Below are positions 8,526 to 43,661 of a DNA stretch of 64,000 bases, piece after piece. Source of the DNA: Alphaproteobacteria bacterium (GTDB taxonomy: Bacteria; Pseudomonadota; Alphaproteobacteria; Micropepsales; Micropepsaceae); assembly GCA_947467345.1 (NCBI GenBank), contig CANIHD010000008.1, positions 1 to 64,000 on the forward strand, given 5' to 3'. Every line of letters starts with the position of its first letter. The stretch's first letter is position 1. The notes under the pieces are model-generated. The model searched no databases, was not told where the DNA came from, and was given only the letters and a program-made list of their open reading frames with translations. The translations under genes were made by a program, and so were the position numbers.

Positions 8526-8542
8526 TCTATCCCCCCGGATAT

Positions 8543-11298: not shown

Positions 11299-11310
11299 TT
11301 AGGCCGGCGT

Positions 11311-14517: not shown

Positions 14518-14580
14518 AAGTCGACATCGACATGCGCGCAGCGCAAGACTGGCGTGTTATTGTTGGCCGCAAGGAGCCTT

Positions 14581-14967
14581 GTGAAAGCTGATCAGGAGCC
14601 AGCAAGCGTCGATGCGAAATCGCGCACGCGCGTTTTCTTGCCCGTAAGCGCATCGCGCAAAAGCGCGATTCGATCTGCGTGGTTGAACACGATCATCACA
14701 ACGACGCTGTTTTATATTCTCGTCCGTTATATCGGCTTCACGACGGCTTTCGTTCTGACCGGCCTGATGAGCCTCGTCTGGTACCTCGTGAACAGAACGG
14801 TGTTCCGCTGCCCATCCTGCACGACGTCGATGTTCGATTACGGCCGTCTACGTAATCGCGGCCCGCGCCTATGGGCCTGTTGGGCAGCTTGGTCTTGCTC
14901 GCAATGCGGAACCGATTTGGTCAAGCGTGAGAAGAAGGCCGAGCGTTCTACTGAATCCCATAAGTAA
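14581..14967 (+). CDS. Hypothetical TM protein with C-terminal Cys pairs (zinc-ribbon-like)
   Basis: GTG start preceded by AAGGAG; TM segments TTLFYILVRYIGFTTAFVLTGLMSLVWYLV; CPSC and CSQC pairs. Confidence 0.55.
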   Translation: MKADQEPASVDAKSRTRVFLPVSASRKSAIRSAWLNTIITTTLFYILVRYIGFTTAFVLTGLMSLVWYLVNRTVFRCPSCTTSMFDYGRLRNRGPRLWACWAAWSCSQCGTDLVKREKKAERSTESHK

Positions 14968-15670
14968 TCGTCACGCTGACTGAGACATTGCTTTCGCCCG
15001 CAGCGATCGTAACTTCGCGTGCTTGCGCCGCCATCATCATCATCGGGTGGGGCGGCTGATAACCGCCGCCGCTTTCCTGAATGCTGAGCACCGGCCCGAG
15101 CGTGATGCCGGCCGCTTCTGCCATGGTGCGCGCTTTGGCGACCGCGTCCCGCACCGCTTCGACGCGCGCGCGTTCCTCAAGCGGCTTCGGTTCGCGAAAG
15201 CCGAAGGAGATGCCGCCGAGCTGATTGGCGCCGCTGCGGACCAGTGCATCCAGCGTGGTTCCGAGATTGCGGAGATCGTCGACAATCACCGTCACCTGAT
15301 TTGAGACTTGATAGCCGATGATGCGTTGCGGCTGCGGTTCCGGTCGGTCGGGTACGAAGGGCGCGTATTGCGGCGAGACTGAGAAATTCGAGGTCTGGAT
15401 TTTCGCGTCCGGAATACCGGCGGCTTTTAGAGTCGCGAACACGCACTGCATCGCATCGTTGTTGGCATTGAGGGCTGCGGCGGCCGTCACCGCCTGCGAT
15501 GTGACGCCGGCCGAAACCTGCGCCTGATCGGGCGCTGCCGAAATGCGCCCCTCCCCTGTCGCCACCACCATGCGCTGAACGACGTTTCCGGCGGCAAAGG
15601 CTGGGGAGCTTCCCAACATGCAAAGCGCGGCGAGGCTTACGACGGGTAGAATGTGGGCCATACGGGTCAT
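14948..15670 (-). CDS. SIMPL domain (DUF541) periplasmic protein
   Basis: VVATGEGRISAAPDQAQVSAGVTSQA...YQVSNQVTVIVDDLRNLGTTLDALVRSGANQLGGISFGF. Confidence 0.88.
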   Translation of the reverse strand: MTRMAHILPVVSLAALCMLGSSPAFAAGNVVQRMVVATGEGRISAAPDQAQVSAGVTSQAVTAAAALNANNDAMQCVFATLKAAGIPDAKIQTSNFSVSPQYAPFVPDRPEPQPQRIIGYQVSNQVTVIVDDLRNLGTTLDALVRSGANQLGGISFGFREPKPLEERARVEAVRDAVAKARTMAEAAGITLGPVLSIQESGGGYQPPHPMMMMAAQAREVTIAAGESNVSVSVTITYGIQ

Positions 15671-18612: not shown

Positions 18613-19203
18613 CTAATACGATTTGCAGGCGACATGGGCCGTCGCCAGGCGAAGATGGAGCCGGCGCGCGCGCACCAGCGGCCACCAATCGTAGAGAAAA
18701 ATCTCCAGCGGTTTCCAATTCGCCACCCAGCCCACAATGATCAGGCCTTCCTCGAGAAAGGCGCTAAACGCGCTGTCGCCGAATTGTGCGGCGGCAAGCT
18801 GGCTGGCGCTGAGGCACACCACAAGCGCCGCGATGCCGATGGCCAAGTAAACGCGGCCGATGCGAAACAAATCCTTCTTCTCAGCGGCTTTACGCGCGGC
18901 GCGTGTTTCGAAGTAATGGCGTATCGCATCGGGCAGCTTCTTCGCTTCCGGCGTTTTCGCCTCGGCGGACGGCATTTGCACAATGATGGCCAGCGGAATT
19001 CCGCGCGGTAATTCACGCGCCCAATTGACGATATAGGCTTCCGCCTCGGGGTCGAGATCGCGTTCAGCGAAGGGAAAGGGATCGAGCGTGTCGAACATCT
19101 GTGACAGATGCTCGACACGAAGCTCAATGGTGCCGACCGGCGGCGCGTCTTGCGCGAAATGATCGGGCGATGACGCGCGCACCTTGGCTTTGGATTCGCT
19201 CAC
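18613..19203 (-). CDS. Hypothetical membrane protein
   Basis: VEHLSQMFDTLDPFPFAERDLDPEAEAYIVNWARELP plus TM VYLAIGIAALVVCLSASQLAAAQF. GTG start overlaps the upstream stop (GTGTGA). Confidence 0.65.
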   Translation of the reverse strand: MSESKAKVRASSPDHFAQDAPPVGTIELRVEHLSQMFDTLDPFPFAERDLDPEAEAYIVNWARELPRGIPLAIIVQMPSAEAKTPEAKKLPDAIRHYFETRAARKAAEKKDLFRIGRVYLAIGIAALVVCLSASQLAAAQFGDSAFSAFLEEGLIIVGWVANWKPLEIFLYDWWPLVRARRLHLRLATAHVACKSY

Positions 19204-20231
19204 ACCATCTTGGCTTTCGGCATTTTCAGGAAGGAATTGGCCGCGTGATAAACCAGCTGGCGATTAATGGCGAATTGCAGTGAGTGCGCGATGCCCGGCA
19301 GCACCACGAATTGCCGGTCAGGATTGGGCAGCTTATCGAAGAAATTGGAAACGTCTTCGATGGTGGCAATGCCGTCATATTCGCCGCGAATGATCAGAAC
19401 CGGCGACTTCACTTTCACCGGATCCACCACCGGCAAATTCGCCGTCATGTCGAGATAGGTGCCGGTCGGAACAGTGTCGCCATGCGGCAGCTCAGCTGCC
19501 GCCAAAACGTCGCCGAGGCGCGCGTCCGACGTGCCGGGATGATCACGCGTGAAAATGCTGCGCACCATCTCAAGGTCGCGCTTGCGGCGGCTATTGGCGC
19601 GGAAGAAGGGTAGGTTCTTGCCGCGATCTTCGAGAGTCGGCGAATCTTTCCCCGTATAGGTGAGCGCGCCCAAGATCAGCCGGTCGGCCTGGTCGGGATG
19701 GGCGGAGGCGAAAGCAGCGGCACGAAGCGCGCCGCTGGACTCGCCCCAGAAATGAAATTTCTCCTGGCCGGTCTCGCGCTTCACGATGGGCATCACGGCG
19801 GCGAGATCGAGCACGCCGGTTTTGATGTCGGAATTGCCTGGCGTGACAGTGGAGCGGCCATAGCCTTCGAAATCCATCGTCCACACGTCGAAGCCATAAC
19901 GGGCGAAGACGTTCATCAGCGAATACTCGCCAAGGCCTGGTGTTGCCAGATCGAAGCTGGGCCGCCCCGAAATGGACGAGCCGTGCACCAGGAAGAGCAC
20001 CGGGCGCTGCAACGCGCCTGCCGCCAGACGCTTGCGATAGATATAGAGCTTCACCGTGCCGCGTTCGGCCCAGAACTCGTCGGTGGCGAATTCAGCGCCC
20101 ACGCCGGGCGCAGTGGCGGCGAGAGCTGCTACCGGCGCTGCAGCGGCGGCCAACGCCGCACCGACGAAAACATCGCGGCGGCTAGGGGCCAATGCTTCTC
20201 TGGAAAACGCTTCCTTGTTGGTGTCGGTCAT
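19200..20231 (-). CDS. Alpha/beta hydrolase, Tat-exported
   Basis: SRRDVFVGAALAAAAAPVAALAA signal; LFLVHGSS, nucleophile region WGESSGALRA, catalytic GIAHSLQ. Confidence 0.85.
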   Translation of the reverse strand: MTDTNKEAFSREALAPSRRDVFVGAALAAAAAPVAALAATAPGVGAEFATDEFWAERGTVKLYIYRKRLAAGALQRPVLFLVHGSSISGRPSFDLATPGLGEYSLMNVFARYGFDVWTMDFEGYGRSTVTPGNSDIKTGVLDLAAVMPIVKRETGQEKFHFWGESSGALRAAAFASAHPDQADRLILGALTYTGKDSPTLEDRGKNLPFFRANSRRKRDLEMVRSIFTRDHPGTSDARLGDVLAAAELPHGDTVPTGTYLDMTANLPVVDPVKVKSPVLIIRGEYDGIATIEDVSNFFDKLPNPDRQFVVLPGIAHSLQFAINRQLVYHAANSFLKMPKAKMV

Positions 20232-20278
20232 GATGCCCTCCCAATATGTTTGTTGTCTATTCTAGGCCCCGCGCCCGT

Positions 20279-21328
20279 CTAACGGCGAGTCAGCACTTCG
20301 CGGTACAGCCGTTCCCATTTGGCATTTTCCCGCACGAAGCGCGGCGCATCGATAAAGGTCAGCGCCAGGCCCGGCGGTAATTTCTGATATTTCAGATTGG
20401 TCGGAACGCGCTGCATATCGGCCCAGATTTTCTGGCCGTCGCTGAGTAGAAAATCGGTAAACAACACAGCGGCATAAGGGTGCGGCGCGCGCTTCATCAC
20501 GCCTGCCGCTGCCATCTGCGCGATGCTGGGGGAGAGATCCACCTCCTCAATCGGCGCGCCGGCTAGTTTCATCGCCACCACCTCGTGGCGATAGACGTTC
20601 CACGCCATCGGCACCTCGCCGGAAATAACCAGGCTGGTCAAAAGCGTGTGACCCTTGCGCGCCGACAGCCCGTTTGCGGCGGCGACGTCGCGAAAGAGCT
20701 TCAGCCCCTTTTCCTCGCCCATGGCCGTGACGAGCGTCATGAACCAGTTGCTGTCCGTGGATTCGATGCCGATCTTGCCCTTCCATTTGGGCTCGAGCAG
20801 ATCTTCATAACGCTTCGGCACGTCTTCTTTGCGCACCAGTTTGGTGTTGTAAGCGACATTGTAGATGATGAGCCGCGAGCCGACCCATGGCGTGTTGGCG
20901 GGCCGCGCTTCTTTCATCAGATCGGCGAAGACAGGAGAAGTCACAGGCTGAAACAGCCCTTCACGCGTTAGCGCTTCCATTTCGGCGGTGGCGGTTTCGA
21001 TGACGTCGACATCGTTGCGATTACCGCGGGCTTCGGTGAGCGCACGCTGCAGAATATCGCCGGAGGCGCCGCGCCAAATGCGGACGCGCACGCCATATTT
21101 CTTTTCGAATGCGCTCGTCAGCGGCGTCATGTCCTCAACCGCCGTGGAGGAATAGAGCGTGAGCGTACCTTCGCGTCTGGCGCCGGCAATCAGGCGCGAA
21201 GTGCGATCGGGGCCGGTGAGGGCGCCGGTCACAGCCGTGGTCACGGGTTGAGCGTGAGCGGGCGTAAAAAGAAGCGTGGCTCCCAGGACCGACAATACAA
21301 ACGCATAGCGGCGCCGGGAGTGGTTCAC
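20279..21328 (-). CDS. Extracellular solute-binding protein, Fe3+ ABC type (paralog 1)
   Basis: RLIAGARREGTLTLYSSTAVEDMTPLTSAFEKKYGVRVRIWRGASGDILQRALTEARGNRNDVDVIET. Confidence 0.85.
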   Translation of the reverse strand: MNHSRRRYAFVLSVLGATLLFTPAHAQPVTTAVTGALTGPDRTSRLIAGARREGTLTLYSSTAVEDMTPLTSAFEKKYGVRVRIWRGASGDILQRALTEARGNRNDVDVIETATAEMEALTREGLFQPVTSPVFADLMKEARPANTPWVGSRLIIYNVAYNTKLVRKEDVPKRYEDLLEPKWKGKIGIESTDSNWFMTLVTAMGEEKGLKLFRDVAAANGLSARKGHTLLTSLVISGEVPMAWNVYRHEVVAMKLAGAPIEEVDLSPSIAQMAAAGVMKRAPHPYAAVLFTDFLLSDGQKIWADMQRVPTNLKYQKLPPGLALTFIDAPRFVRENAKWERLYREVLTRR

Positions 21329-21332
21329 CTTC

Positions 21333-22394
21333 TTAGCGCCGCTGATTGGCTAGGGTTTCGCGAAAGAGATTGCGCCATTTCTCGTTCTCGGTGACGTAGC
21401 GCGAGACATCAACGAAATCGATTTTGAGATCTTTCGGCAGGCGTTGATATTTCAGATTGGTTGGCAAGGCCCCATCGCGCCCGGTGATGCGCGGCTGGCC
21501 TTCTGAAAGTATGTAATCGAGAAACAGCACGGCGGCGTGCGGATGCGGGGCGCGGCGCGCCACGCCGGCGCCCGAGGGAACCGCCAAAACCGGCGGCAGC
21601 AGCAATTCCCCGATGGGCGCGCCGGCTTCTTTCGCCGGCTGCGCGAAATGGCGATAGACATTCAGACCAATTTGAACTTCGCCGGACACCACCATATTGC
21701 CCAATGTCGTATGGCCCTGGCGCGCCGAAAGTCCATTGGTCGCCGCGATATCGCGGAAGAGTTTTAGGCCCTTCTCTTCGCCCATGTTTTGAACAAGCGA
21801 CATGAACCAGATCGCGTCCGTGGCTTCGACGCCGATCTTCCCCTTCCAGCGTGGATTGAGAAGGTCTTCATAGCGCTTCGGCACTTCGTTCGGTTTGACG
21901 AGGCGCGTGTTGTACGCCCCGCTAAACACGATGACTCGCGAGGCAATCCAGCTTCGCCCTGGCGCCGTCGCGCCCGGCATCAAATCGGCCAGCAATGGAA
22001 GCTTCACCTCCTGCAGCAAATGCTCGCGGTGCAATGCCTCCATTTCGGAGGCTGGCGTTTCGATCACGTCCACGGCGAAGCGTCCGCCGCGCGCTTCCGT
22101 TAGAGCGCGTTGCTGGATGGCGACCGTGCCTGCCTTCCAAATGCGCACCTTCACGCCGTATTTGGCTTCGAACCCTTTTGTGACGTCGCCCATCACATCG
22201 GCGGTGGCGGAGGAATAGACATCCACCACGGCTTCCTTCTTGGCGCCCGCGATCAAGCGCTGCATGCGATCGGCGCCGGTGAGACTGCCGAGTTCGGCCG
22301 TCGTAACTGCTTGCGCCGCAAGCGCAGGCGCAGCCAAAAGCGCCAGCGGAGCGGCCAGCATGTCACGTCGCGTGGGTCGGAAACGGAGTACCAT
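21333..22394 (-). CDS. Extracellular solute-binding protein, Fe3+ ABC type (paralog 2)
   Basis: RLIAGAKKEAVVDVYSSATADVMGDVTKGFEAKYGVKVRIWKAGTVAIQQRALTEARGGRFAVDVIET; Tat-like TRRDMLAAPLALLA. Confidence 0.85.
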   Translation of the reverse strand: MVLRFRPTRRDMLAAPLALLAAPALAAQAVTTAELGSLTGADRMQRLIAGAKKEAVVDVYSSATADVMGDVTKGFEAKYGVKVRIWKAGTVAIQQRALTEARGGRFAVDVIETPASEMEALHREHLLQEVKLPLLADLMPGATAPGRSWIASRVIVFSGAYNTRLVKPNEVPKRYEDLLNPRWKGKIGVEATDAIWFMSLVQNMGEEKGLKLFRDIAATNGLSARQGHTTLGNMVVSGEVQIGLNVYRHFAQPAKEAGAPIGELLLPPVLAVPSGAGVARRAPHPHAAVLFLDYILSEGQPRITGRDGALPTNLKYQRLPKDLKIDFVDVSRYVTENEKWRNLFRETLANQRR

Positions 22395-22427
22395 GCATAA
22401 CCCTTGAGAGTTCGAAGCCTAACAGAA

Positions 22428-23552
22428 TCAGGCCGCCTTGGGAGGCAAATCCTCCAGCTCTTTTTTGTAGGCATCCTCCATGCGCGGAGCCAAACCGTGC
22501 TTCCCCAACGCGTCCGTGAACGTGCTGCGGATTTTCGGATCTTCATCGGCGTAATCGATTTGTTCGCCGCCGACGCGGCGGCTGATCCAAGCCGTCGGAA
22601 CCCCTTGCGAATTGCGGATCAACGCCACCTCATGTTTGAAGGCGAGATAGCGCGCCGGGGTCGGGCTCGAATTGAAATGCTGGTGGAACCATTTGTTCGG
22701 CGGTACGATCAGCGATCCCACCTGCCACTCATAGCGGCGCGGCTCTTCGCCTTCCGGCCACATCAGCGAATAGCCTTCGCCGGACAGAATGATGACATGC
22801 GCGCTCGGCCCGTGGGCGTGCGCCTTCTTGTAGGTGCCGACCGGGAACTGCGAGATGTGGCTGCTCATTGAACCCTTGGCCATGTTGAAACGAATATGGC
22901 CGCCGCCGGCACCGCGCTCTTTCGCCGTGATGAGCGGTAGGTTCACGGCGTCCGGCACGAAATTGGTCGGCAGCAAGAAGCCTTTCGGTTCGGTCTTAGG
23001 CGAAAAATAATCCGGCTCGCCGTTGAAGCGGCCTTTGAAATCATATGTCGTGTTGAAGACGAAACTGGGATCGTCATAGAGGTTCATCACCGACGGGCCG
23101 TTGGTGACCGCGACAAAGCGCACGACCTCTTGTCCCGAACCGTTGAAATGCTGATGCCAGGCATTGATCGGAATTGCGAACATGGAGCCAGCCTTCCATT
23201 CGAAGGTGAGGCGCTGACCGGCATCATTCCACACCGATGTTGAACCGCGGCCTTCGAGCACCAGAATCATTTCCTCGAAGAGCTGGCGCTGCGGCTCTAG
23301 TTTCTTTCCGGCTGGAATTTCACAGACATAGCAATCGTTCGAGGTGCGCGATGCGTCGTGATTGATGTAGACGCCTTTGCCGCCGCGTCGTGCCCATGGC
23401 TTCACCTCAACCGTGCGCAAATTCTGCACATAGAGGGCGCTGATGATCTCCAAGCCCTGATCGCGCACCCAGCGCTGATAGGGTGTGTCGCGGTCTTTCT
23501 CGGTGGAGAACTTGTTGGCCAGTTCTTCCGACACCAATGCGTCTTTGCTCAT
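22428..23552 (-). CDS. Bicupin (two cupin domains)
   Basis: Two cupin cores with NAWHQHFNGSGQEVVRFVA and KWFHQHFNSSPTPARYLAF, plus EEMILVLEGRGSTSVWNDAG and AHVIILSGEGYSLMW. Confidence 0.85.
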   Translation of the reverse strand: MSKDALVSEELANKFSTEKDRDTPYQRWVRDQGLEIISALYVQNLRTVEVKPWARRGGKGVYINHDASRTSNDCYVCEIPAGKKLEPQRQLFEEMILVLEGRGSTSVWNDAGQRLTFEWKAGSMFAIPINAWHQHFNGSGQEVVRFVAVTNGPSVMNLYDDPSFVFNTTYDFKGRFNGEPDYFSPKTEPKGFLLPTNFVPDAVNLPLITAKERGAGGGHIRFNMAKGSMSSHISQFPVGTYKKAHAHGPSAHVIILSGEGYSLMWPEGEEPRRYEWQVGSLIVPPNKWFHQHFNSSPTPARYLAFKHEVALIRNSQGVPTAWISRRVGGEQIDYADEDPKIRSTFTDALGKHGLAPRMEDAYKKELEDLPPKAA

Positions 23553-23565
23553 CGTCAACTCCTCG

Positions 23566-24708
23566 TCAGTCTGCGGTATATGGCTTAGTGGCGGCGGTCC
23601 CGCCTTCATGAAGCACGACGCATGAATCCGGGCTCATGCGCATATGAATGGTTTCGTCGACGGACGCGCGCAAGGCCGGATGGGCGCGCGACATCATGAG
23701 GATATTTCCGAGTCTAATTTGGAAATCGGCGTAGTCGCCGAGAAAAATCCGCTGATCGACTTTACCGGAGAACAGATTGAGCGTGCCGCCACCGGAGAAT
23801 GCGTCGTCGGCGAGTTCTACGTTCTCGGGACGGATCGAGAGCGTAACATTCTGGCCAGCTTTAAGGGGCGTATCGCTGATCGCCACCAGATCGCCCATCG
23901 CGCCGCGGATGCGCCAATGGCTGGTGCCGTTCTCAGCGCCCAGCACCGTACCGTCAATGAAATTGCTGTTGCCGATGAACTCGGCAACAAAGCGCGAATA
24001 GGGACGGTCGTAAATCGCCCGCGGCGAACCGATCTGAACGATGCGCCCCTCATTCATCACCGCTATCTCATGGCTGAGCGCCAGCGCCTCCGCCTGATCG
24101 TGCGTGACATAAATCGTGGTTACGCCCAGCTCACGCTGAATGCGCTTCAATTCGAAGCGCATGCGCTCGCGCAGTTTTGCATCAAGGTTGGAAAGAGGCT
24201 CGTCCAATAGGAGCAATTCCGGCTCCATCACCAGCGCGCGCGCAAGGGCCAATCTTTGCTGCTGGCCACCAGAAAGTTTGGTCGCCTCGCGGTCGGTCAG
24301 ATGATCGAGCGCAACGGCTTTGAGAACGGTGGCGACTTTGTCTTTGATTTGCGCCGGCGAAAGGCCGCGCTTGCGCACCTCTAGTGGGAAGGCGGCGTTC
24401 TGATACACCGACATATGTGGCCAGATGGCGTAGGACTGAAACACCATGCCGAAATTGCGCCGGTTAAGCGGCACGAAAACGTTTTTAGACGAAGAATAGA
24501 CAAGCCGCCCGCCCACTTCGATCTCCCCTGATGTAGGGCGCTCCAGCCCTGCAATCGAACGCAATGTCGTGGTTTTGCCGCAGCCGCTCGGTCCGAGCAG
24601 CGTGAAGAATTTTCCGGGGGGCACCTCAAAGGCAACGTCCTGCGCTGCCCGCACGGCGGGGCCGGACTTCGTCTTGTATTCGGTATTGAGCGATCTGACG
24701 CTAAGCAC
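23566..24708 (-). CDS. ABC transporter ATP-binding protein
   Basis: GPSGCGKTTTLRSIAGLERPTSGEI, LSGGQQQRLALARALV, LLLLDEPLSNLDAKLR. Confidence 0.92.
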   Translation of the reverse strand: MLSVRSLNTEYKTKSGPAVRAAQDVAFEVPPGKFFTLLGPSGCGKTTTLRSIAGLERPTSGEIEVGGRLVYSSSKNVFVPLNRRNFGMVFQSYAIWPHMSVYQNAAFPLEVRKRGLSPAQIKDKVATVLKAVALDHLTDREATKLSGGQQQRLALARALVMEPELLLLDEPLSNLDAKLRERMRFELKRIQRELGVTTIYVTHDQAEALALSHEIAVMNEGRIVQIGSPRAIYDRPYSRFVAEFIGNSNFIDGTVLGAENGTSHWRIRGAMGDLVAISDTPLKAGQNVTLSIRPENVELADDAFSGGGTLNLFSGKVDQRIFLGDYADFQIRLGNILMMSRAHPALRASVDETIHMRMSPDSCVVLHEGGTAATKPYTAD

Positions 24709-24725
24709 GCGGACCTCTTCTCATG

Positions 24726-26534
24726 TCAGACTTCCTTGATGCCGAAGCGCTTGCTGATGAGATGCGCGATGATGACAAAAACAAACAGCGCGCAGATCAA
24801 CATCACGCCGAACGCGGAAAGCTGCGTGTATTGGCCGTTCTGCCACAGCTCCCACAACACGATGGAAACGACCTCAGTGCCCGGGCTGTAGAGCAGGATC
24901 GAGGAAGAGAGCTCGCGGATCGAAACGATGACGATGTAAATCCATCCGGCGATGAGGCCCGGCTTTAGAAGCGGCAGCACCACGCGGTAAAATGTTGTGA
25001 GCCAAGACGCTCCCGAAAGCTGTGCCGATTCTTCCAGCTCTTTATGGATTTGCAGCATCGACGTGGTGGAGAAGCGCATGCCGTAAGGCATGAAGCGCGT
25101 CACGTAAGCGAGCAGCAATATCCAGATCGTGCCGTAAATGCCGCCGCCCAGCGCGAGGTAACAGATCATCACCGCAAGGCCGAGCACGAGGCCGGGCATG
25201 ACGAGGGGCATAGACGCCATGTTGTCGAGCAGCCAGCGCCCCGGAATTTTGGTGCGCAAGACGATCCAGCACACGATGGAGGACAGCAGCATGATGATGG
25301 TGGCACTGCCGGTCGCGAGCAGAAAACTGTTCCACACCGCGGTGCCGACGCTGGGGAATTCCAGCACGCGCGCGTAGGAATCGAGCGAGACGTTCTGCAG
25401 CGCTTCCCAAGAAGGAACGCTGTAAAAACGCTGCAGCGAACTCCACAGCAGAATCAGAAACGGCAGTCCGATCACCAATATGCCGTAGAGGATAAAGAAG
25501 CCGAACGCCGCCCAGCGCCAGCGCCCGATATCCATGACGCGCGGGCGAAAGCCCTTGCCGGTGACGGTCGCGTATTTGCTGCCCTGCTGGGAAAGGCGCG
25601 ACTGCCAATAGATACCGACAGACGTGATGGCGAGCAGCGTCACCGCATAGGTTGCGCCGAGGCCGATATCGCTGGGATAGCCGTGAAGCGCCTCGTAAAT
25701 CGACGAGGTGAACACTTCGATGCCGACCGGCAAGCCAATCAAAGCCGGTGTCTCGAACGATTCTACAGAGCGCACAAAGAGAATGAGGAACGCCGCCGAG
25801 GCCGCCGGCAATGCCAGCCGTAATGTGATGCGCCAAGCGATCTGCCACATTGAGGCGCCGCTCATTAGAGCGGATTCTTCCAACGCGGGGTCCATCGAAC
25901 GCAGCGACGCGCTCATCAAAAGGAAGGCCAGCGGGGCGTGCTGAATGCCGTCCACCCACATCATGCCGGTGAGCGTGTAAATATCGACAAAGACATAGTC
26001 GGTGTTGAAGACGCGCTGCAGGACCAGATTGATGATGCCGATCTGAGGGCTCGCCAGCATGATCCAGGCGGTCACGAAGAGAATGCCGGGTATGACGATC
26101 GGAACCACCGATAGCGCATAGAAAAGGGGTTTGCCCGGCGTGTTGGTGCGTTCGCAGATCCACGCCAGAAGGGTGCCTAGGGTCAGCGCGAGAAGGGCGG
26201 AGCCGAGCGCATAGGTCGCTGAGTTGAAAAACAGCTGCAGCGTGCGCGCGCTGCCATAGACTTCGGCATAGTTTCCGAGTGTGAAAACCGCTGGGTTATC
26301 GGCGGTCGCCGGTGTGAAGAAGCTTTGCCAGAACAGAAAGATCAACGGCACAAGCGCAAGCCAGGCGACGATGGCGACCACCGTACCCAGAACAATCCAT
26401 TTCGGGTCGAACAAGGACCGTTCCGGCAATCGTGCCAGCTCGGCGCTTGAGATACCTGTCACGGTTGCTGCGCTCCCCGATATTTTCCCAACGGCGCCGT
26501 GATCGGCGCTTCTATCGTTGTCACAAACTCTCAA
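24726..26534 (-). CDS. Fe3+-type ABC transporter permease (fused two-domain)
   Basis: 602 aa, two sets of about six TM segments, EAA-like loops (EESALMSGASMWQIAWRITLRLALP and EESAQLSGASWLTTFYRVVLPLL). TTG start overlaps the EutA-like stop (TTGA). Confidence 0.88.
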   Translation of the reverse strand: MRVCDNDRSADHGAVGKISGSAATVTGISSAELARLPERSLFDPKWIVLGTVVAIVAWLALVPLIFLFWQSFFTPATADNPAVFTLGNYAEVYGSARTLQLFFNSATYALGSALLALTLGTLLAWICERTNTPGKPLFYALSVVPIVIPGILFVTAWIMLASPQIGIINLVLQRVFNTDYVFVDIYTLTGMMWVDGIQHAPLAFLLMSASLRSMDPALEESALMSGASMWQIAWRITLRLALPAASAAFLILFVRSVESFETPALIGLPVGIEVFTSSIYEALHGYPSDIGLGATYAVTLLAITSVGIYWQSRLSQQGSKYATVTGKGFRPRVMDIGRWRWAAFGFFILYGILVIGLPFLILLWSSLQRFYSVPSWEALQNVSLDSYARVLEFPSVGTAVWNSFLLATGSATIIMLLSSIVCWIVLRTKIPGRWLLDNMASMPLVMPGLVLGLAVMICYLALGGGIYGTIWILLLAYVTRFMPYGMRFSTTSMLQIHKELEESAQLSGASWLTTFYRVVLPLLKPGLIAGWIYIVIVSIRELSSSILLYSPGTEVVSIVLWELWQNGQYTQLSAFGVMLICALFVFVIIAHLISKRFGIKEV

Positions 26535-28306
26535 TGCTGGTGGGTCAGGGCCTTCTTCTTATGCCCATGACTATTGTCGTGATGATGATGTCCGTCCTCG
26601 CGATGATGGTGGCTATGACCATGATCGTGTCCGTGATGATGCCCATGCCCATGATCATGGTGGTGATGGTCTTCGTCGTGATGATGAATGCGTTCCTTAG
26701 CGCCGGAGCCATGGGCGCCGTCGCGGAAGATCAGCGATTTGATGGTCACCGGCACCGTGTAGGACGGAACGCGTAAGCGTCCCAGATCGATGAAATCGAA
26801 ATCGGTCAGCATCACGCCGTCGATGACGAGGATATCGCTCATGACCCCGCACTCTTCGCGCATGATCGCGCCAAGTGTCTGTGCCACGTCGCCATCGAGC
26901 ATGACATGAACCGGTTTTCCCGCCGCGATACGGTCGGCCAATCCCATGACCAATCCGTGCGCGAAGCCATACAGCCTTTCGTAAGAAGGTTGCCCACGCC
27001 AGCGAAAGGCGAGGGCGATTTCCGCGTCGGCATTGGCGACATCGAAATTCTTGCGATGTTTAAGGATGGCGCCCGCCAATTCGTGCGCCTTCACCTCTTC
27101 ACCGAATTCGAAATGCGGCTGAAGCACTTGCAGATTGCGCCGTGGCAGAAGCGTTCCGGGATTTGAGATGTAGCTGGTGTTACCCGAGAGCTGCACGCTG
27201 TATTCCGAGGCGCCCAAAGCTGTGGCGCGAATGCATTCGCCCGCCGGCAGAAGCGGCCAGGGCAGCGCGTTCGCGGCGAGGCGTTCGGCAATCGCGGTGC
27301 CGAGGCGTTTGCCCATATCGCCGAAATCGCGGCTCTCGCGGCCATAGACATATTCCGCCACGCCGCCCGAAAACATCACGCCGCCAATGTTGTTGAGATC
27401 GCTCAAGGGATCGGTGAGATAGAGATTCTCGACATCGTGGGGCAGGGGATCGGCGGTTAGCGCCGTCACCAGCGTGTCGGCCATGGTTGCCGCGACTTTG
27501 TCGAGCGCATCATCGCGCGCGACATCACCGAGCTCCCAGGCGAACCCTGCGCGCCGCGCGTGGGCGCGTCCCGCGGGATCGAGCCGCGAGATATGCCCGT
27601 CTTCGCCCACCACTTGCAGACGCCCGCCAATATGAATCGCGGCGGTGGCCAGAACGCGGCCGGTTTCGACAATCGCGAGTTTGGTCGTACCGCCACCGAT
27701 GTCGATATTCAGAACGCGGCAGGATTTTTCCTGCGATGCATTTGCCGCGCCGGAGCCATAGGCCGCGAGCGTGGCTTCCATATGGTGGCCGGCGGTCGCG
27801 CACACGAAATCGCCGCCACGCGCGGCAATCATGGATGAAATTCCCTCTGCGTTTTCGCGCCGCAAGGCTTCGCCCGTCAGAATGACCGCGCCGGTATCGA
27901 CATCGGCCGGCGCTATGCCAGCGGCCTGATAGGCCTCATCGATGATGCGGGTGAGCCCGATATCGTCGATCCGGGTTTCGTCGCGATAGGGCGTGAGGGA
28001 GACGGGCGAGAGGTACAACGACTCCCGTGACGTCACGTAATAGCGGCTGGTCAATTCTTCCGAGAGCCGGCGCATTTTGATGCGCGAGAAAATGATCTGC
28101 GTACCCGACGAGCCGATATCGATACCGACGCTGGTGAGCTGGACGTGATCCTGAATCCAGAGGGGATTTTCCTCCAGCGGTCCGTCTTCGAACTCGTCGT
28201 GGTCGTGGTCAGCCTCGCCGGCATGCTCATGCGTAAGGTCGCGGCCACCGGAATGGTCGGCGACGCCGTGCATGTTTGCTTTGGCCGCGTCCTTATCGTC
28301 TGCCAT
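26531..28306 (-). CDS. EutA-like protein (ethanolamine ammonia-lyase reactivase family, ASKHA ATPase) with His-rich N- and C-terminal extensions
   Basis: ASKHA motifs SVGIDIGSSGTQIIFSRI, LNIDIGGGTTKLAIVETG and GVMFSGGVAEYVYG. The C-terminus HHHDEDHHHHDHGHGHHHGHDHGHSHHHREDGHHHHDNSHGHKKKALTHQH is extremely His-rich. Confidence 0.85.
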   Translation of the reverse strand: MADDKDAAKANMHGVADHSGGRDLTHEHAGEADHDHDEFEDGPLEENPLWIQDHVQLTSVGIDIGSSGTQIIFSRIKMRRLSEELTSRYYVTSRESLYLSPVSLTPYRDETRIDDIGLTRIIDEAYQAAGIAPADVDTGAVILTGEALRRENAEGISSMIAARGGDFVCATAGHHMEATLAAYGSGAANASQEKSCRVLNIDIGGGTTKLAIVETGRVLATAAIHIGGRLQVVGEDGHISRLDPAGRAHARRAGFAWELGDVARDDALDKVAATMADTLVTALTADPLPHDVENLYLTDPLSDLNNIGGVMFSGGVAEYVYGRESRDFGDMGKRLGTAIAERLAANALPWPLLPAGECIRATALGASEYSVQLSGNTSYISNPGTLLPRRNLQVLQPHFEFGEEVKAHELAGAILKHRKNFDVANADAEIALAFRWRGQPSYERLYGFAHGLVMGLADRIAAGKPVHVMLDGDVAQTLGAIMREECGVMSDILVIDGVMLTDFDFIDLGRLRVPSYTVPVTIKSLIFRDGAHGSGAKERIHHHDEDHHHHDHGHGHHHGHDHGHSHHHREDGHHHHDNSHGHKKKALTHQH

Positions 28307-28411
28307 CACCAATTCCGCTGAAATGCCCCCGACCCCGAAAGGAGCGGGGCGGTAAGGTGCCCGGGGCGGGAGGGCGGCGCAAGTAGAGATTTCCATGACA
28401 TTTCCGGCACT

Positions 28412-29188
28412 TCATGTTCCCCCATCGAGCGTGACGAGAGTCGGATCGAGATGCGCGTACGGGTTTGCCGCAAGCTCGGGCCGCAACGCCACTTGGCGTT
28501 CCAAGGCCTCTAACTCGGTCGTCCACGCCGCCGTCCCATGTGTATGGGCAAGGTCGAGCACCGGCCCTTCGATGGCTATGGAAGCGATGGGGTCGCCCGC
28601 GAGGCGCACCGGTAACGCGAGTGCGCTGCGTCCCGGAACGGCACGGCTGTCATCGATGGCGAAGCCGCGCGCTTGAATGGGCGCCAGAACAGCGGCGAGC
28701 TCGTTAGACTGGGTATTTGCCCAGGCCGCATAGGCGTTGATCCGCTCATCGCCCATGTGCGCGAGGAGTGCGCGCCCGGCATAGTGACCGGCGAGGGGGC
28801 CAAGTGTGCCCAAAGGTGACGCCTGCGTAATTTCATTGCCGCCGCGCGCCACCGCGACGCGTAAACCATGCCAGCCAATGGGCACCACCAACGACGTGGT
28901 TTCGCCCGATGCCGCAGCAATTTTAAGCAAATGCGGCAACGCCAACTCGCGCAGGCGAAAGCGCGCGAAGAAATTTTGGCGTAAGCGAAAGGCGGCTGGT
29001 CCCACGACATAGCGTGAGGACGACCGGTAGCGCTCAGCAAACGCGCCGCGCTGCAGCGCATCAAGCGTTCGGAACACTGTTCCCGGCGGAAGACCAGCGC
29101 GCCGCGCCAATTCGGTGACGCCGAGCGGCTCGCCGCTGCTGCCCAGCAGAGCCAGTATTTTCAAGGCGCGAGTAGCTGAGCTGCTCAT
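28412..29188 (-). CDS. IclR family transcriptional regulator
   Basis: HTH ALKILALLGSSGEPLGVTELARRAGLPPGTVFRTLDAL plus IclR effector domain. Confidence 0.9.
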   Translation of the reverse strand: MSSSATRALKILALLGSSGEPLGVTELARRAGLPPGTVFRTLDALQRGAFAERYRSSSRYVVGPAAFRLRQNFFARFRLRELALPHLLKIAAASGETTSLVVPIGWHGLRVAVARGGNEITQASPLGTLGPLAGHYAGRALLAHMGDERINAYAAWANTQSNELAAVLAPIQARGFAIDDSRAVPGRSALALPVRLAGDPIASIAIEGPVLDLAHTHGTAAWTTELEALERQVALRPELAANPYAHLDPTLVTLDGGT

Positions 29189-30033
29189 ATTTCTTCCAGT
29201 CCGGCCATGGCGGGGAAGAAGCGCAAATGCTGCGACAGCGGCGCAAGAATTTCCGTCATGCGCGGCAATGTTGTGTTGATACGGTCAAGATCGAAACGTT
29301 CTCGTGGTCCACCTACGGTAACGATGGCGTGCGGGCGCGACGAATGATCCAACAACGGAAATATCGCGTAGGCGGCGCTGGTGAGAACCGGATTGCGCCA
29401 CACCACTGCAGAGTTGGCGCGAATGCGTTTCACATCGTCCCAAACGCCTTGCGCTGTTTCACTTTCAGCATCGCGAAACGGTAGGATGCGTGGCAGCGGT
29501 GCTGCCCGTGCGAGATACTCGTCTATGTCTCCATCGGCCATATGCGCCAGCAGTGTGCGCGACATCTTAGTGCAGTGAAGAGGCACCGGCGTTCCACGCG
29601 ACGAGCGCAATACGCGGGGCCCCGGCGGCAAAATTTCATCGATCGTGACGCGATTGTCGCCCATTATCACCGACAGATAGACGCTTTCGCCGGTGTAAGC
29701 GTGCAGGCGCTCCAGATAAGGGCGCGCCAATGATCCAAGTTCGAGAACCGGCTCATCGCCACCAAGACCAAGCACTGCATAGCCAAGCTGATAGCGGTCG
29801 CCGGTACTATCGCGCGCAAGCCAGCCTTCTTTGACCAGTGTGCTCAGTGCGCGATGCACCATGTTCTTGCTCATGCCGAGATCGCGCGCCAAGGCGGTAA
29901 CGCCGTGCGAGTCTTCGGCAACAGCGAATGCCGATAGCACTGTGAGAACGCGCTGCGCCGCCTGATTGCGGTAGGTCGGGCGCGTCGCGCTTCTCGCGTC
30001 TGCTTCCGTTGACAAGGATGCTCCGCCGTCCAT
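29185..30033 (-). CDS. IclR family transcriptional regulator
   Basis: AQRVLTVLSAFAVAEDSHGVTALARDLGMSKNMVHRALSTLVKEGWL. The start is placed at MDGGASLSTE. Overlaps the next IclR gene by 4 nt. Confidence 0.88.
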   Translation of the reverse strand: MDGGASLSTEADARSATRPTYRNQAAQRVLTVLSAFAVAEDSHGVTALARDLGMSKNMVHRALSTLVKEGWLARDSTGDRYQLGYAVLGLGGDEPVLELGSLARPYLERLHAYTGESVYLSVIMGDNRVTIDEILPPGPRVLRSSRGTPVPLHCTKMSRTLLAHMADGDIDEYLARAAPLPRILPFRDAESETAQGVWDDVKRIRANSAVVWRNPVLTSAAYAIFPLLDHSSRPHAIVTVGGPRERFDLDRINTTLPRMTEILAPLSQHLRFFPAMAGLEEI

Positions 30034-30097: not shown

Positions 30098-30898
30098 ATG
30101 GGGCTCATGGCCGCCGACGATGCAGCGATACGCGAAGTGAACGGCGTGAAGCTCGAGGTGCGGGATATCGGCAGCGGACGGCCCTTGCTGTTCCTGCATC
30201 CTGGCCATCCGAGTGGGCGGCTTGCCGGCAATGCGCCGGTGCTCTCAAAGCTGGCTGAGAATTTCCGCGTCATCGCGCCGACACATCCGGGGTTTGGCCG
30301 TGATACGGCTCCGGAGACGCTGACGACTGTCGAAGATCTCTCCTATCTCTATCTCGAGCTTCTCGACGCGTTGAATCTAAAAGACGCCGTCGTGGTTGGT
30401 GCCTCGCTCGGCGGCTGGATCGCGGCTTCGATGGCGATCAAATCGACAGCGCGCATGTCGCGCCTCCTCTTCGTCAATCCGCTCGGAATCAAAGTGGGCG
30501 GCCGCGAAGCGCGCGATATCGCTGATATCTTCGCGATTTTCGACAAAGAGATTGCAGCGCTCGGCTATGCCGATGCGACGCTCGGCACGCCGGATCGCAC
30601 TAAACTGAGCGAAGACGAATTTCTCTTCATGGCAAAATCGCGCGAGGCGACCGCCCGCTATGCGTGGTCGCCGTATATGCACGATCCGAAATTGAAGGGG
30701 CGGCTCTACCGCATCAAGATTCCGACACTGGTTCTAGCGGGTGAAGCCGATCGCATTGTCGCGCCGGGTTATGCGAAGGCTTTTGCCGATGCGATTCCGG
30801 GCGCGCGTTTTACGACGATCCCAGGCGCCGGACATTTTCCCCATCACGAACAGCCGGACGCGCTTTCCGCCGCCATCGCTCAATTCGCCGGAGGATAA
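30098..30898 (+). CDS. Alpha/beta hydrolase
   Basis: RPLLFLHPGHPSG, nucleophile elbow VVGASLGGWIA, catalytic GAGHFPHHEQPDAL. Confidence 0.88.
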   Translation: MGLMAADDAAIREVNGVKLEVRDIGSGRPLLFLHPGHPSGRLAGNAPVLSKLAENFRVIAPTHPGFGRDTAPETLTTVEDLSYLYLELLDALNLKDAVVVGASLGGWIAASMAIKSTARMSRLLFVNPLGIKVGGREARDIADIFAIFDKEIAALGYADATLGTPDRTKLSEDEFLFMAKSREATARYAWSPYMHDPKLKGRLYRIKIPTLVLAGEADRIVAPGYAKAFADAIPGARFTTIPGAGHFPHHEQPDALSAAIAQFAGG

Positions 30899-30901
30899 AA
30901 C

Positions 30902-32086
30902 ATGCGGGTTTTTCAGTTCACCGAGCAGCCTTATCCGCCCGCATGGGACAAGCACCAAGGCAGCTTGCGTGTAAATCTGCCGAACCGCCTGCTTGATCCG
31001 ACGGTCGCCGCCGATCTCTTCCACCGCTATTACGACGAGTGGCAGCTCTGCGATGAGCTTGGCCTCAACATCATGGTCAACGAACATCACCAGACCGCAA
31101 CCTGCATGTCGTCGACATGCGTCGTTACGCTAGCGGTGCTCTCGCGCATCACCAAACGCGCGCGGCTTCTGGTGCTCGGCTATCCGATTTCCAACCGGCC
31201 AGATCCTTTGCGCGCCGCCGAAGAGCTGGCGACCATCGATGTGATTTCGCGTGGCCGTTTGGAAATGGGCTTCGTCAAAGGTGTGCCGCAGGAAGTGGCG
31301 GTGGCGAATCTCAATCCGGTCTTCACCAATGAACGCTTTTGGGAAGCGCATGATTTCATCATCAAGGCGATGACCAGCCATGACGAGCCGTTCAATTGGG
31401 AAAGCGAGAACTTCCATTATCGGCATGTGAACATCTGGCCGCGTCCCTATCAGCAGCCGCATCCTCCCGTGTGGAGCACCACCGGCAGCAAAGCGACGGC
31501 GATGAAATTCGGCGGGCTGGGTTACACGATGGCAACGCTGGGTACCGGCTACGCCACGCGCCCAATTTATAACGCCTATCGGCAGGCCTATATGGAAAAG
31601 CATCACGTCGCGGCGCCTGCCGACCGCTTCGCTTATCTCGGCTTTGTCGCGGTCGGGCACAACGAAGTTGAAGCGCGGCGCCTCGGCGAAATGGTTCTCG
31701 CTTACCCGCGCACCTCAGGCATCGTGCACCCGCCTTTCCGCAACCCGCCGGGATTTCTCTCGGTGGCCGATAACGTCCGCATTCTGAAGGGCGAGGGTAA
31801 ACCGCGCAGCTACACCAAGGATGGCCGCGTGGTGGATATGGCCAAAGGCAGTGTGCAGGATTTGATCGACGCCGGCGTTCTGTTCTGCGGCACGCCGGAT
31901 CAGGTCTACGACCAGATCACCGATTTTGCCGAACATTGTGGCGGCATGGGAAATCTTCTGATGATGGCCCATGCCGGAGGCATGTCGCATGACGACACGG
32001 TGGGCAATCTCTCGCTCTTCGCGAAGGAAGTGTTGCCGCGCCTGCAAGAATTTCGTCAGCCGGATGCGGCCGTCGCGGCGGAATGA
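30902..32086 (+). CDS. LLM class flavin-dependent oxidoreductase (luciferase-like monooxygenase)
   Basis: MVNEHHQTATCMSSTCVVTLAVLSRITKRARLLVLGYPISNRPDPLRAAEELATIDVISRGRLEMGFVKG. Confidence 0.9.
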   Translation: MRVFQFTEQPYPPAWDKHQGSLRVNLPNRLLDPTVAADLFHRYYDEWQLCDELGLNIMVNEHHQTATCMSSTCVVTLAVLSRITKRARLLVLGYPISNRPDPLRAAEELATIDVISRGRLEMGFVKGVPQEVAVANLNPVFTNERFWEAHDFIIKAMTSHDEPFNWESENFHYRHVNIWPRPYQQPHPPVWSTTGSKATAMKFGGLGYTMATLGTGYATRPIYNAYRQAYMEKHHVAAPADRFAYLGFVAVGHNEVEARRLGEMVLAYPRTSGIVHPPFRNPPGFLSVADNVRILKGEGKPRSYTKDGRVVDMAKGSVQDLIDAGVLFCGTPDQVYDQITDFAEHCGGMGNLLMMAHAGGMSHDDTVGNLSLFAKEVLPRLQEFRQPDAAVAAE

Positions 32087-32895
32087 GCGTGCAAAGCAAA
32101 TTTATCGACGTCGAGGGCATGCGAACGCATTACCTCGAAGCGGGCAGCGGCCATCCTTTGGTGCTCCTGCATTCGGGTGAATTTGGCGCCTGCGCGGAGC
32201 TTTCCTGGGAATTCAATATCGAACCGCTGTCGCAGCATTTCCGCGTGCTCGCGCCCGATTGGCTTGGCTTCGGCCAAAGCGCCAAGATTTTCAGCTTCGA
32301 CGATATGCAGGAATTGCGTATCCGCCACATCGCCGGATTTCTGAAAGAATTGAGAATTCCTAAAGCGCATTTCATCGGCAATTCCATGGGCGGCGGTCAG
32401 CTCGCGCGTGCCGCCGTCATGACACCGCCGGCCTTTCCAATTGTAAAAATGGTGCTGTGCGGCGCGGGCGGTTTCGCGCCCCGGAACGCGGCGCGCGAAA
32501 CGCTCAACACCTATGAAGGCGACCGCGATCACATGCGCCGCATTGTCGAAACCATGTTCGTCAATCCGCGCATATATAGCGATGCATCCTATATCGACCG
32601 CCGCCATCGTCTCTCACTTGAACCGGGTGCCTGGGAATGCACGGCGGCGGCGCGCTTTCGCATGCCGGGCCGCAAATCCGGCGAGCGCGACGAAACAACT
32701 TACGAGAAGATCGCGTTTCCCACGCTGATCATCGCCGGCGCGCGTGACCCCTTGCGCAATCCCGGCTACGCGCAGGAATTGCAGAAGCAGGTCACCGATT
32801 CTGAGATCGTCATGGTCGACGACGCAGGTCATTGTCCGCAGATCGATTCCCCCGAACGCTTCAACCAAGAGGTGATTGCGTTTCTGTCACGTTGA
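32083..32895 (+). CDS. Alpha/beta fold hydrolase
   Basis: HPLVLLHSGEFGACAELSWEFN, FIGNSMGGGQLARAAV, DDAGHCPQIDSPERFNQ. ATGA overlap with the LLM gene. Confidence 0.88.
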   Translation: MSVQSKFIDVEGMRTHYLEAGSGHPLVLLHSGEFGACAELSWEFNIEPLSQHFRVLAPDWLGFGQSAKIFSFDDMQELRIRHIAGFLKELRIPKAHFIGNSMGGGQLARAAVMTPPAFPIVKMVLCGAGGFAPRNAARETLNTYEGDRDHMRRIVETMFVNPRIYSDASYIDRRHRLSLEPGAWECTAAARFRMPGRKSGERDETTYEKIAFPTLIIAGARDPLRNPGYAQELQKQVTDSEIVMVDDAGHCPQIDSPERFNQEVIAFLSR

Positions 32896-34613: not shown

Positions 34614-35600
34614 ATGGCCAAGTTGCAGTTGAATTTCGCATGCGCGCTCTATGACCGCATGCAGCCGCTTTACACCGGCGAGGTGCAGCCCGAAGGGATC
34701 GACCTCAATTTCATTCCCATCGAATTGCCGCGCCCGATTTTCGACCGCATGTCGGGAGGTCTGGAATTCGACGTCGCCGAATATTCCAGCTCCGAATTCG
34801 TGCAGCGCTTCGCCGCTAAGGAATGCCCCTTCGTTGCCATTCCGATTTTCCCCTCGCGCTGCTTCCGCCACAGCTTCATTTCCGTGTCGCGGCGTTCCGG
34901 CATCAAGACGCCCAAGGATCTTGAGGGAAAACGCGTCGGCCTGCCGCTCTATACGATGACCGCCGCCATTTTCATTCGCGGGCTGCTGCAGCACGAATAC
35001 GGCGTCAATCTCGACAAGATCCATTGGGTGCAAGGCGCCATCAATGAAGGCGGCGCGCACGGCGCGCCCACCGTTCTGCCGCTGCTCAAACATGTTCCGA
35101 TCGAAATCAATAAAAGCGGAAAATCCCTAAGCGATTTGATCGAGCAGGGCGATGTCGACGCGACGCTTGGCACCAGCCTGCCGGAAGCCATTCGCCACAA
35201 TCCGGAGATCAAGCGACTGTTCCCGAATTTCCGCGAGCTTGAAAAGGAATATTACGGGCGCACCAATATCTATCCGATCATGCATTTGGTCGCGATTCGT
35301 AAAGACGTTTACGAGAAGCATCCGTTCGTGGCGACATCGCTGGTGAACGCCTTCACCAAGTCAAAGGAGATCGCGCTACAGAAAATGTTCAATCTGCGCG
35401 CGCTGCGCTACATGCTGCCGTGGATGACCGACGATCTCGACGAGATCTACGACGTGTTCGGCGGCGATCCGTGGCCTTACGGCGTGGAAAAGAACCGCGC
35501 CACGCTGGACGCTTTGATCACCTATCTCGTGGATCAAGCATTGGTGGCGCCCGAAAACCGTCCCACAGTCGACGATCTCTTCGTTCCGACTTACGGCTAA
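34614..35600 (+). CDS. SBP-fold protein resembling 4,5-dihydroxyphthalate decarboxylase; no signal peptide
   Basis: MAKLQLNFACALYDRMQPLYTGEVQPEGIDLNFIPIELPRPIFDRM...FDVAEYSSSEF. The mature-like domain starts at Met1. Confidence 0.75.
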   Translation: MAKLQLNFACALYDRMQPLYTGEVQPEGIDLNFIPIELPRPIFDRMSGGLEFDVAEYSSSEFVQRFAAKECPFVAIPIFPSRCFRHSFISVSRRSGIKTPKDLEGKRVGLPLYTMTAAIFIRGLLQHEYGVNLDKIHWVQGAINEGGAHGAPTVLPLLKHVPIEINKSGKSLSDLIEQGDVDATLGTSLPEAIRHNPEIKRLFPNFRELEKEYYGRTNIYPIMHLVAIRKDVYEKHPFVATSLVNAFTKSKEIALQKMFNLRALRYMLPWMTDDLDEIYDVFGGDPWPYGVEKNRATLDALITYLVDQALVAPENRPTVDDLFVPTYG

Positions 35601-42235: not shown

Positions 42236-42377
42236 CTTGCGCTCCTCGCGAACCGGAATCCCAAATCCCGCTAAGCCGATGCTTGACTCTATTCAGTGTG
42301 TACCAGAATGTCGTCCGAATTCGCGTTAGAATGTGCGATATGCGAACAACTGTCAAATGTGATTGAAGGCTTTTGCG

Positions 42378-43661
42378 ATGTTGAGAAAAGAGCAGAACGA
42401 GTACGTCACCCGCACAGGCGCAGGCACGCCGATGGGGAAATTGTTTCGACGCTATTGGCTGCCGGCGATCATGGCCGAGGAATTGCCGGAGAATGATTGC
42501 CCGCCCGTTCGCGTAAAATTGCTTGGCGAGCCATTGCTCGCGTTCCGCGACAGCAAAGGCAATTACGGTCTGGTCGACGAGTTCTGCCCGCATCGCCGCG
42601 TATCATTGTGGTTCGGCCGCAACGAAGAATGCGGCATTCGCTGCGCCTATCACGGCTGGAAATTCGACGTTACCGGAAAGGTGATGGAAATTCCGTCCGA
42701 GCCCGATGACAGCCCGTTCTACAAGCGCGTCAAATTGAAGGCCTATCCGCTCATCAAAGTCGGCCGCGTGCTGTGGACCTATATGGGACCGCCCGAACAT
42801 CAGCCGGGTCCGCCGGAATTCGAGTTCGCCACCGTGCCGGACAATCAGAGCTTCGTTTCCAAGCGCTGGCAGGATTCGAACTATCTTCAGGCGATGGAAG
42901 GCGGCATCGATTCCAGCCATGTCGGTTGGTTGCACAAGGCGACCATCGAATCCGATCCGCTATTCACCAAGACCAAGGGCAACGATTACACTGTTGCCGA
43001 TCCTAAGCCGGTGTTCGAAGTCGTCGAACAACCGAGCGGTCTTTATATTGCTGCGCGTCGCAATGCCGAAGGTGGCAAATATTATTGGCGCATCACCACT
43101 TGGATCATGCCGTATTACACGCAGATTCCGCCGCGTGGCGGCCATCCCGTGCACGGGCATTTCTGGGTTCCGATCGACGACGAGAATTGCTGGACCTGGA
43201 GCTACGACTATCATCCGACGCGCCCCCTTTCGGAAAACGAAGTCGCGGCGATGGACAATGGCGAAGGCATTCACTGCAAGGTGGACAACACGTTCCACTC
43301 CTACGCCAATAAGGACAATGATTATCTGATGGACCGCGGGAGCCAGAAGAGCGGCAAGACCTATAGCGGCGTCGAAGGCTTTGCCATGCAGGACGCATCC
43401 TTGCAGGAAAGCATGGGGAAGATCGTTGATCGCTCGCTGGAAAATCTGGTGCCGACCGACATGGGCGTCGTGATGGCGCGCCGGCAGTTGATGGCCGCAG
43501 CCAAAGCGCTTACCGAGGAAGGCAAAGAACCGCCGGGCGTTCAGCCGCACACACATCGTGTGCGTTCAGCGTCGGTGGTTCTCGCGCCCGATCAGGCCTT
43601 CAAGGAAGCTGCCAAAGACGTGCTGGTCGTGCGCCCAGGCCTGGCGCACGCATCGGTCTAA
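42378..43661 (+). CDS. Rieske non-heme iron oxygenase (phthalate 4,5-dioxygenase-like oxygenase component)
   Basis: Rieske motif CPHRRVSLWFGRNEECGIRCAYHGW; mononuclear Fe site EGGIDSSHVGWLHK. Confidence 0.9.
   Translation: MLRKEQNEYVTRTGAGTPMGKLFRRYWLPAIMAEELPENDCPPVRVKLLGEPLLAFRDSKGNYGLVDEFCPHRRVSLWFGRNEECGIRCAYHGWKFDVTGKVMEIPSEPDDSPFYKRVKLKAYPLIKVGRVLWTYMGPPEHQPGPPEFEFATVPDNQSFVSKRWQDSNYLQAMEGGIDSSHVGWLHKATIESDPLFTKTKGNDYTVADPKPVFEVVEQPSGLYIAARRNAEGGKYYWRITTWIMPYYTQIPPRGGHPVHGHFWVPIDDENCWTWSYDYHPTRPLSENEVAAMDNGEGIHCKVDNTFHSYANKDNDYLMDRGSQKSGKTYSGVEGFAMQDASLQESMGKIVDRSLENLVPTDMGVVMARRQLMAAAKALTEEGKEPPGVQPHTHRVRSASVVLAPDQAFKEAAKDVLVVRPGLAHASV

Follow-up and report, generated by a model that had tools for sequence, protein, structure and literature searches.

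A EutA-like ATPase that accompanies a bicupin and may load or repair its metal

Why would a relative of EutA, the reactivating factor of ethanolamine ammonia-lyase (EAL), be encoded between the regulators of an operon and the genes of an ABC importer and a bicupin? True EutA removes damaged cobalamin from the lyase EutBC using ATP (PMC5821096). The EutA-like gene studied here lies in a 64,000-nucleotide stretch (the window) on contig C8 of a draft alphaproteobacterial genome of 2.49 Mb that is 96% complete and holds three EutA-family genes (on C7, on C8 in the window and on C15). To our knowledge, the EutA family is known only for B12 enzymes, leaving the client of this protein as the question that the locus raises.

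The gene lies in a run of ten minus-strand genes from 18613 to 30033, the extent and identities of which, as read in an initial annotation from the letters alone, are borne out by the open reading frames and by domain searches. The run, with the sub-regions of the EutA-like protein and two further genes of the window, is as follows.

18613..19203, minus strand: small membrane protein, 196 aa, with no Pfam match; an orthologue occurs in the same order in locus L060
19200..20231, minus strand: alpha/beta hydrolase with a twin-arginine signal (Tat-type)
20279..21328, minus strand: solute-binding protein 2, from domain and model searches
21333..22394, minus strand: solute-binding protein 1, from domain and model searches
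22428..23552, minus strand: class-A bicupin, the candidate client; likely start 23552; second-cupin residues H264, H266, H271 and H309
23566..24708, minus strand: ABC transporter ATPase with TOBE_2, from domain and model searches
24726..26462, minus strand: two-domain ABC permease (BPD); likely start GTG 26462 rather than TTG 26534
26531..28306, minus strand: EutA-family (PF06277) ASKHA ATPase, class A; likely start 28306, 591 aa
26531..26725, minus strand: His-rich C-terminal tail of the EutA-like protein, with 27 His after a PVTIKSLIF motif; predicted disordered
28172..28306, minus strand: N-terminal extension of the EutA-like protein with the conserved HEH...DHDHD motif; predicted disordered
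28412..29188, minus strand: IclR-family regulator 2, from domain searches
29185..30033, minus strand: IclR-family regulator 1, with an ATGA overlap with regulator 2
34614..35600, plus strand: NMT1-like protein of a kind that recurs in EutA/bicupin loci, from neighbour-family comparison
42363..43661, plus strand: Rieske oxygenase with a LigXa_C domain, 64% to the Phyllobacterium Rieske protein and a relative of the Rieske gene in many EutA/bicupin loci

Alignment of orthologues places the start of the EutA-like protein most likely at 28306 (the longest open reading frame begins at 28396) and that of the bicupin most likely at 23552, with a 13-base gap to the ATPase gene; bicupin residue numbers here count from the start of the 393-aa open reading frame at 23609. 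The TTGA that had been read as joining the EutA-like and permease genes is present at 26531–26534, but the overlap is probably fortuitous, because the permease of relatives starts about 70 bases downstream of eutA and a coding model favours the GTG at 26462.

The EutA-like protein is a bona fide member of its Pfam family (PF06277, 384.5 bits against a cut-off of 27, covering model positions 2–474 of 475), and the nucleotide-site residues D93, G95, D232, G234, G235, T237, G344 and G345 are invariant in the alignment. Its core is predicted with confidence and both ends are predicted to be disordered. It shares with true EutA the ASKHA fold, these nucleotide-site residues and about 30–35% core identity, but reaches at best 316.8 bits against the NCBIfam EutA equivalog cut-off of 598, and in a tree the eut-type EutA proteins form a clade apart from it (support 0.999). 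In this phylogeny, which the initial annotation had suggested building, the bicupin-linked proteins lie outside the eut-type clade; they comprise three classes, A, B and C. A sequence search of solved structures with the EutA-like protein and with the bicupin returned no close relative, and Foldseek gave the EutA-like protein generic ASKHA matches at low TM-scores, 1hux and 4eht among them. The reactivases of diol and glycerol dehydratases and the activators of 2-hydroxyacyl-CoA dehydratases likewise belong to the ASKHA superfamily and embody the idea of an ATP-driven enzyme activator, although they form other families with other clients.

The genomic setting separates the two groups in the same way. 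The EutA proteins of haloarchaea and of C. difficile (Clostridioides) adjoin eutB/eutC, whereas the proteins described here are paired with a bicupin. The initial annotation remarked that the window holds no ethanolamine ammonia-lyase, and the point extends further: EutB is absent from the rest of the 96% complete genome, and 32 of 40 carrier genomes lack it as well. Databases label these proteins ‘ethanolamine ammonia-lyase reactivating factor’, a name that leads pathway annotation astray in soil and freshwater bacteria lacking such a lyase. The ‘EutA’ of papers on ectoine is an unrelated gene.

The link to a bicupin is widespread. Close homologues of the EutA-like protein occur in three genomes of the same genus (68–70% identity). 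Among 399 Pseudomonadota genomes, that of the window alone has a bicupin match better than E 1e-20 (0 of the 398 others), and the 398 gave only five strong EutA-family matches, which are 29–35% identical, resemble eut-type EutA and, judged by eye, in several cases have an EutB-like gene next to them. Many more relatives emerged from a scan of one genome per species. The best 80 class-A loci (57–72% identity) are spread over Alpha- and Betaproteobacteria, Actinobacteria (Streptomyces, Planotetraspora and others) and one Acidobacteria draft, and their neighbouring genes were assigned by tblastn and a codon-model gene call. A search of a literature library found no paper describing a EutA-like/bicupin system.

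Several lines of evidence support the bicupin as the partner. First, a class-A bicupin lies in 52 of the best 80 class-A loci, always on the same strand, rising to 33 of the 44 loci that have at least 5 kb on both sides, and a class-A bicupin is encoded, linked or not, in 18 of 20 carrier genomes tested. Fourteen class-A loci have a EutA-like gene with neither ABC genes nor a bicupin in the stretch examined. Second, the pairing recurs with divergent members: many alphaproteobacterial loci hold a second pair (the EutA-like protein at 40%, the adjacent bicupin at 33%), plasmids of Phyllobacterium and Sinorhizobium hold a third pair type, and the C15 EutA-family copy in the genome of the window lies 65 bases from a class-C bicupin. 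Third, the pairs are class-specific: 41 adjacent same-strand pairs comprise 25 A/A, 13 B/B, 3 C/C and none mismatched, a concordance that is in part a product of linked genes descending together, as the pairs of any one class are related. Fourth, gene order differs between lineages (EUTA-CUP, EUTA-PERM-ATP-CUP, and CUP-EUTA in Actinobacteria and class B, where CUP is the bicupin, PERM the permease and ATP the ABC ATPase), which argues that the association is more than a single operon preserved intact. In the other direction the dependence is looser: bicupins outnumber EutA-like proteins in the genus of the window genome, and one genome of 74% completeness (G006) has bicupins and no EutA-like match, so not every bicupin needs a EutA-like protein. 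The earlier suggestion that the protein serves a client other than EutBC, perhaps by delivering metal to the bicupin or reactivating it at the expense of ATP, gains from the absence of EutB, the separate clade and the co-occurrence with bicupin genes, and we consider it very probable that the bicupin is what it serves. The EutA-like protein would then be dedicated to, and interact physically with, the bicupin instead of ethanolamine ammonia-lyase.

What would such a partner do? Because of its family membership, the EutA-like protein is on balance probably an ATP-driven activase or repair factor. The reading that we favour, with a probability of about 0.5, is that the bicupin is an enzyme of aromatic-acid catabolism and that the EutA-like protein is its Hsp70-like activase, loading or repairing a metal that is probably nickel. 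The Hsp70/actin-fold ATPase would insert the catalytic metal into the bicupin, or exchange it after inactivation, in analogy to the clearing of damaged cobalamin by true EutA. The bicupin itself would be a nickel-dependent (or iron- or cobalt-dependent) enzyme, plausibly a ring-cleaving dioxygenase, with the substrate of the pathway perhaps entering by the ABC importer. If so, the reactivase principle would extend from B12 to a simple metal site, and a cupin metalloenzyme would have an ATP-dependent activase, something for which we know of no precedent.

The structure of the bicupin is predicted with confidence (pLDDT 85) and has the two-cupin fold. The first cupin is degenerate and has lost its HxH. 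The second carries the standard cupin metal motif, H264-x-H266-x4-H271 followed by G298-x5-P304-x4-H309-x3-N313, and so has the ligand set of a nickel-dependent cupin dioxygenase with the usual Glu replaced by His. H264, H266, H309 and H311 are invariant in 63 of 63 bicupins and position 271 is His in 48 of the 63; class-B bicupins have V or I there, giving a four-His site in classes A and C and a three-His site in class B. In the nickel quercetinase QueD, the corresponding Glu-to-His variant, likewise a four-His site resembling the class-A second cupin, kept its fold and residual activity with nickel or cobalt (PMC4416304). The bicupin differs from QueD in its degenerate first cupin and has no quercetinase match in Pfam or NCBIfam. 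We know of no dedicated ATPase partner of QueD.

Sequence features of the EutA-like proteins and their neighbourhoods may point to nickel. In class A the N-terminus bears a conserved HxH...DHDHD motif and, outside Actinobacteria, the proteins almost always end in a C-terminal tail that commonly holds 10 to 30 His and up to 34. Actinobacterial class-A proteins have His at the N-terminus only, class C has a short N-terminal motif, and class B and true EutA have neither motif nor tail; the tails are thus not essential to the pairing. Nickel-uptake genes recur beside these loci. Nine related betaproteobacterial loci encode NicO upstream of the class-A eutA and on its strand; Phyllobacterium has a HoxN-type transporter and nikR immediately next to its class-B pair; and HupE/UreJ separates the bicupin gene from that of EutA in L081 and is found near these genes in L107, L159, L180, L181 and L182. 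HupE is also present in a Sinorhizobium island related to that of Phyllobacterium, which has no match to the HoxN or nikR of the latter, and NikR and TerC/YjbE, both of which Phyllobacterium has, gave no match in the other 80 loci. NicO, HoxN with nikR, and HupE/UreJ represent non-homologous families of nickel uptake.

Among 41 carrier genomes, 5 of 17 strong HupE matches fall near EutA-like/bicupin genes, a proximity with a rough binomial P between 8e-7 and 3e-4 according to how many loci per genome are assumed (about 2e-5 at six), with kinship ignored. Nickel genes occur in a minority of EutA/bicupin loci, and the window has none; its genome has a single NicO, which is on C9 and some 7 kb away from a class-B bicupin. 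The His-rich tails and the recurrent nickel-uptake genes strengthen the idea, raised in the initial annotation, that the EutA-like protein acts on a metal. That metal would most likely be nickel, collected by the class-A tails and supplied in related loci by the NicO, HoxN or HupE transporters, although on gene context, His tails and metal site together we put the assignment to nickel at somewhat under even odds. The fullest version, in which an Hsp70-like machine loads or repairs nickel and at least three further EutA-family classes are each matched to their own ring-cleaving bicupin, a natural four-His (A, C) or three-His (B) nickel cupin of a widespread aromatic-acid pathway, is more tentative still.

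The alternative that survives best keeps the partnership and changes the metal: the bicupin would use Fe(II) (or Mn), as enzymes of the gentisate dioxygenase or oxalate decarboxylase type do, the ATPase would repair oxidised iron centres, and the nickel genes would serve other enzymes. The relatives of the bicupin fit this reading, because Foldseek finds oxalate decarboxylase (OxdC, a Mn enzyme), MncA and the Fe enzyme gentisate dioxygenase, its weak sequence matches are gentisate and 5-aminosalicylate dioxygenases, which share the bicupin fold and an aromatic-catabolic setting, and class-B bicupins have a plain three-His site. These matches are remote, however, with TM-scores of about 0.45 and scores far under the equivalog cut-offs (19.9 bits against 442 for gentisate 1,2-dioxygenase; 34 against 650 for 5-aminosalicylate 1,2-dioxygenase), and the fold matches are generic, so that the fold does not reveal the reaction. 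Against iron or manganese stand the His-rich tails and the recurrence of unrelated kinds of nickel genes, nikR included, beside the loci, and we regard this reading as unlikely, if worth keeping in mind.

An improbable alternative makes the EutA-like protein a nickel-storage or trafficking protein only, its ATPase fold vestigial or regulatory. Its tail does recall those of HypB, UreE and CooJ, nickel chaperones that carry His tails on nucleotide-binding or chaperone proteins in nickel-linked loci, but their fold family is unrelated, and the annotated locus L155 contains no hydrogenase, urease or CODH. The nucleotide site is moreover invariant, and class B keeps its bicupin pairing without tails.

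Less probable again is that the protein belongs to the ABC importer or regulates it, with the bicupin incidental. The order EUTA-PERM-ATP is frequent in Proteobacteria and found on one Acidobacteria contig, and in some Streptomyces the ABC genes come after CUP-EUTA. The permease, however, is present in only 35 of the best 80 class-A loci, and in class-B and class-C pairs and in many EUTA-CUP loci no transporter of this type adjoins the bicupin. The importer, which the earlier account had treated as integral to the system, is accessory, occurring in fewer than half of class-A loci. Nor did its label as an Fe3+-type transporter hold: the ATPase scores 274 bits against the 496-bit cut-off of the ferric (FbpABC-type) model, both solute-binding proteins lack the Tyr-Tyr pair of iron ligands, and the models that ATPase, permease and solute-binding proteins match best are those of 2-aminoethylphosphonate or polyamine systems, with every score far short of the cut-off. 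We reject a strict ferric importer; by sequence the transporter resembles polyamine and phosphonate ABC systems.

Finally, an ordinary reactivase of EAL or another B12 enzyme, displaced from a eut operon and with its Ni/Co transporters bringing cobalt for B12, could draw on the PF06277 domain with its conserved ATPase motifs and on the ability of the NicO and HupE families to transport cobalt as well, but it is very improbable and largely refuted already by the missing EutB, the separate clade, the unreached EutA equivalog cut-off and the absence of any B12 enzyme among the recurrent neighbour families.

The activase reading places the bicupin in aromatic-acid catabolism, and the neighbourhoods fit. 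A LigXa-type Rieske oxygenase is encoded in 18 EutA/bicupin loci, in addition to that of the window at 42363–43661, and other recurrent neighbours include a ferredoxin, a BenC-like reductase, a class II aldolase/decarboxylase, NMT1-like proteins, an amidohydrolase, an alpha/beta hydrolase and an RraA-type protein with similarity to LigK that is below the LigK cut-off. The Rieske, ferredoxin, reductase, aldolase, amidohydrolase and RraA-type genes together suggest a widely spread aromatic-acid pathway of Rieske oxygenase, ferredoxin, reductase, bicupins and LigK-like aldolase that may depend on nickel. In L180–L182, class-A and class-B bicupins are adjacent, and the block that they form also contains HupE, a ferredoxin, a Rieske gene and a class-B EutA; adjacency of this kind in several genomes suggests that the two bicupins may work together.

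The bicupin family is expanded in the genus to which the genome of the window belongs. This 2.49-Mb draft assembly holds at least seven full-length bicupin genes, distributed over contigs C1, C3, C8, C9, C14 and C15, and they outnumber its EutA-like genes, of which there are three. At three loci (L180, L181 and L182), a class-A bicupin gene adjoins a class-B bicupin gene within a single block that also contains genes for class-B EutA, HupE and ferredoxin. This adjacency suggests that the paired bicupins may assemble into a heteromer or catalyse successive steps.

The class-B EutA copies at L009, L014 and L015 have no adjoining bicupin within the stretch examined, and they lie immediately 3′ of genes that, judged by eye, resemble TctA/TctB of a tripartite tricarboxylate transporter.

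Two other bicupin loci carry the following neighbours:

L155 (Phyllobacterium zundukense), 41687-42328: TerC-family metal transporter gene, near a class-C EutA/bicupin pair
L186 (contig C9 of the window's genome), 11375-15253: three tandem Rieske oxygenase genes

No counterpart of the TerC-family gene was found in the other 80 loci. The Rieske trio lies a few kilobases from NicO and a class-B bicupin.

Within the window, two further gene runs were seen:

30098-32895, divergent from the IclR gene: operon of alpha/beta hydrolase, luciferase-like monooxygenase and second alpha/beta hydrolase
5545-12483, minus strand: permease, solute-binding protein (SBP), ATPase and two MmgE/PrpD-family genes

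Because only 64 bases separate the IclR gene from the start of the divergent operon, the two likely share a control region. The minus-strand run encodes another ABC importer, broadly similar in type to that of the EutA/bicupin cluster.
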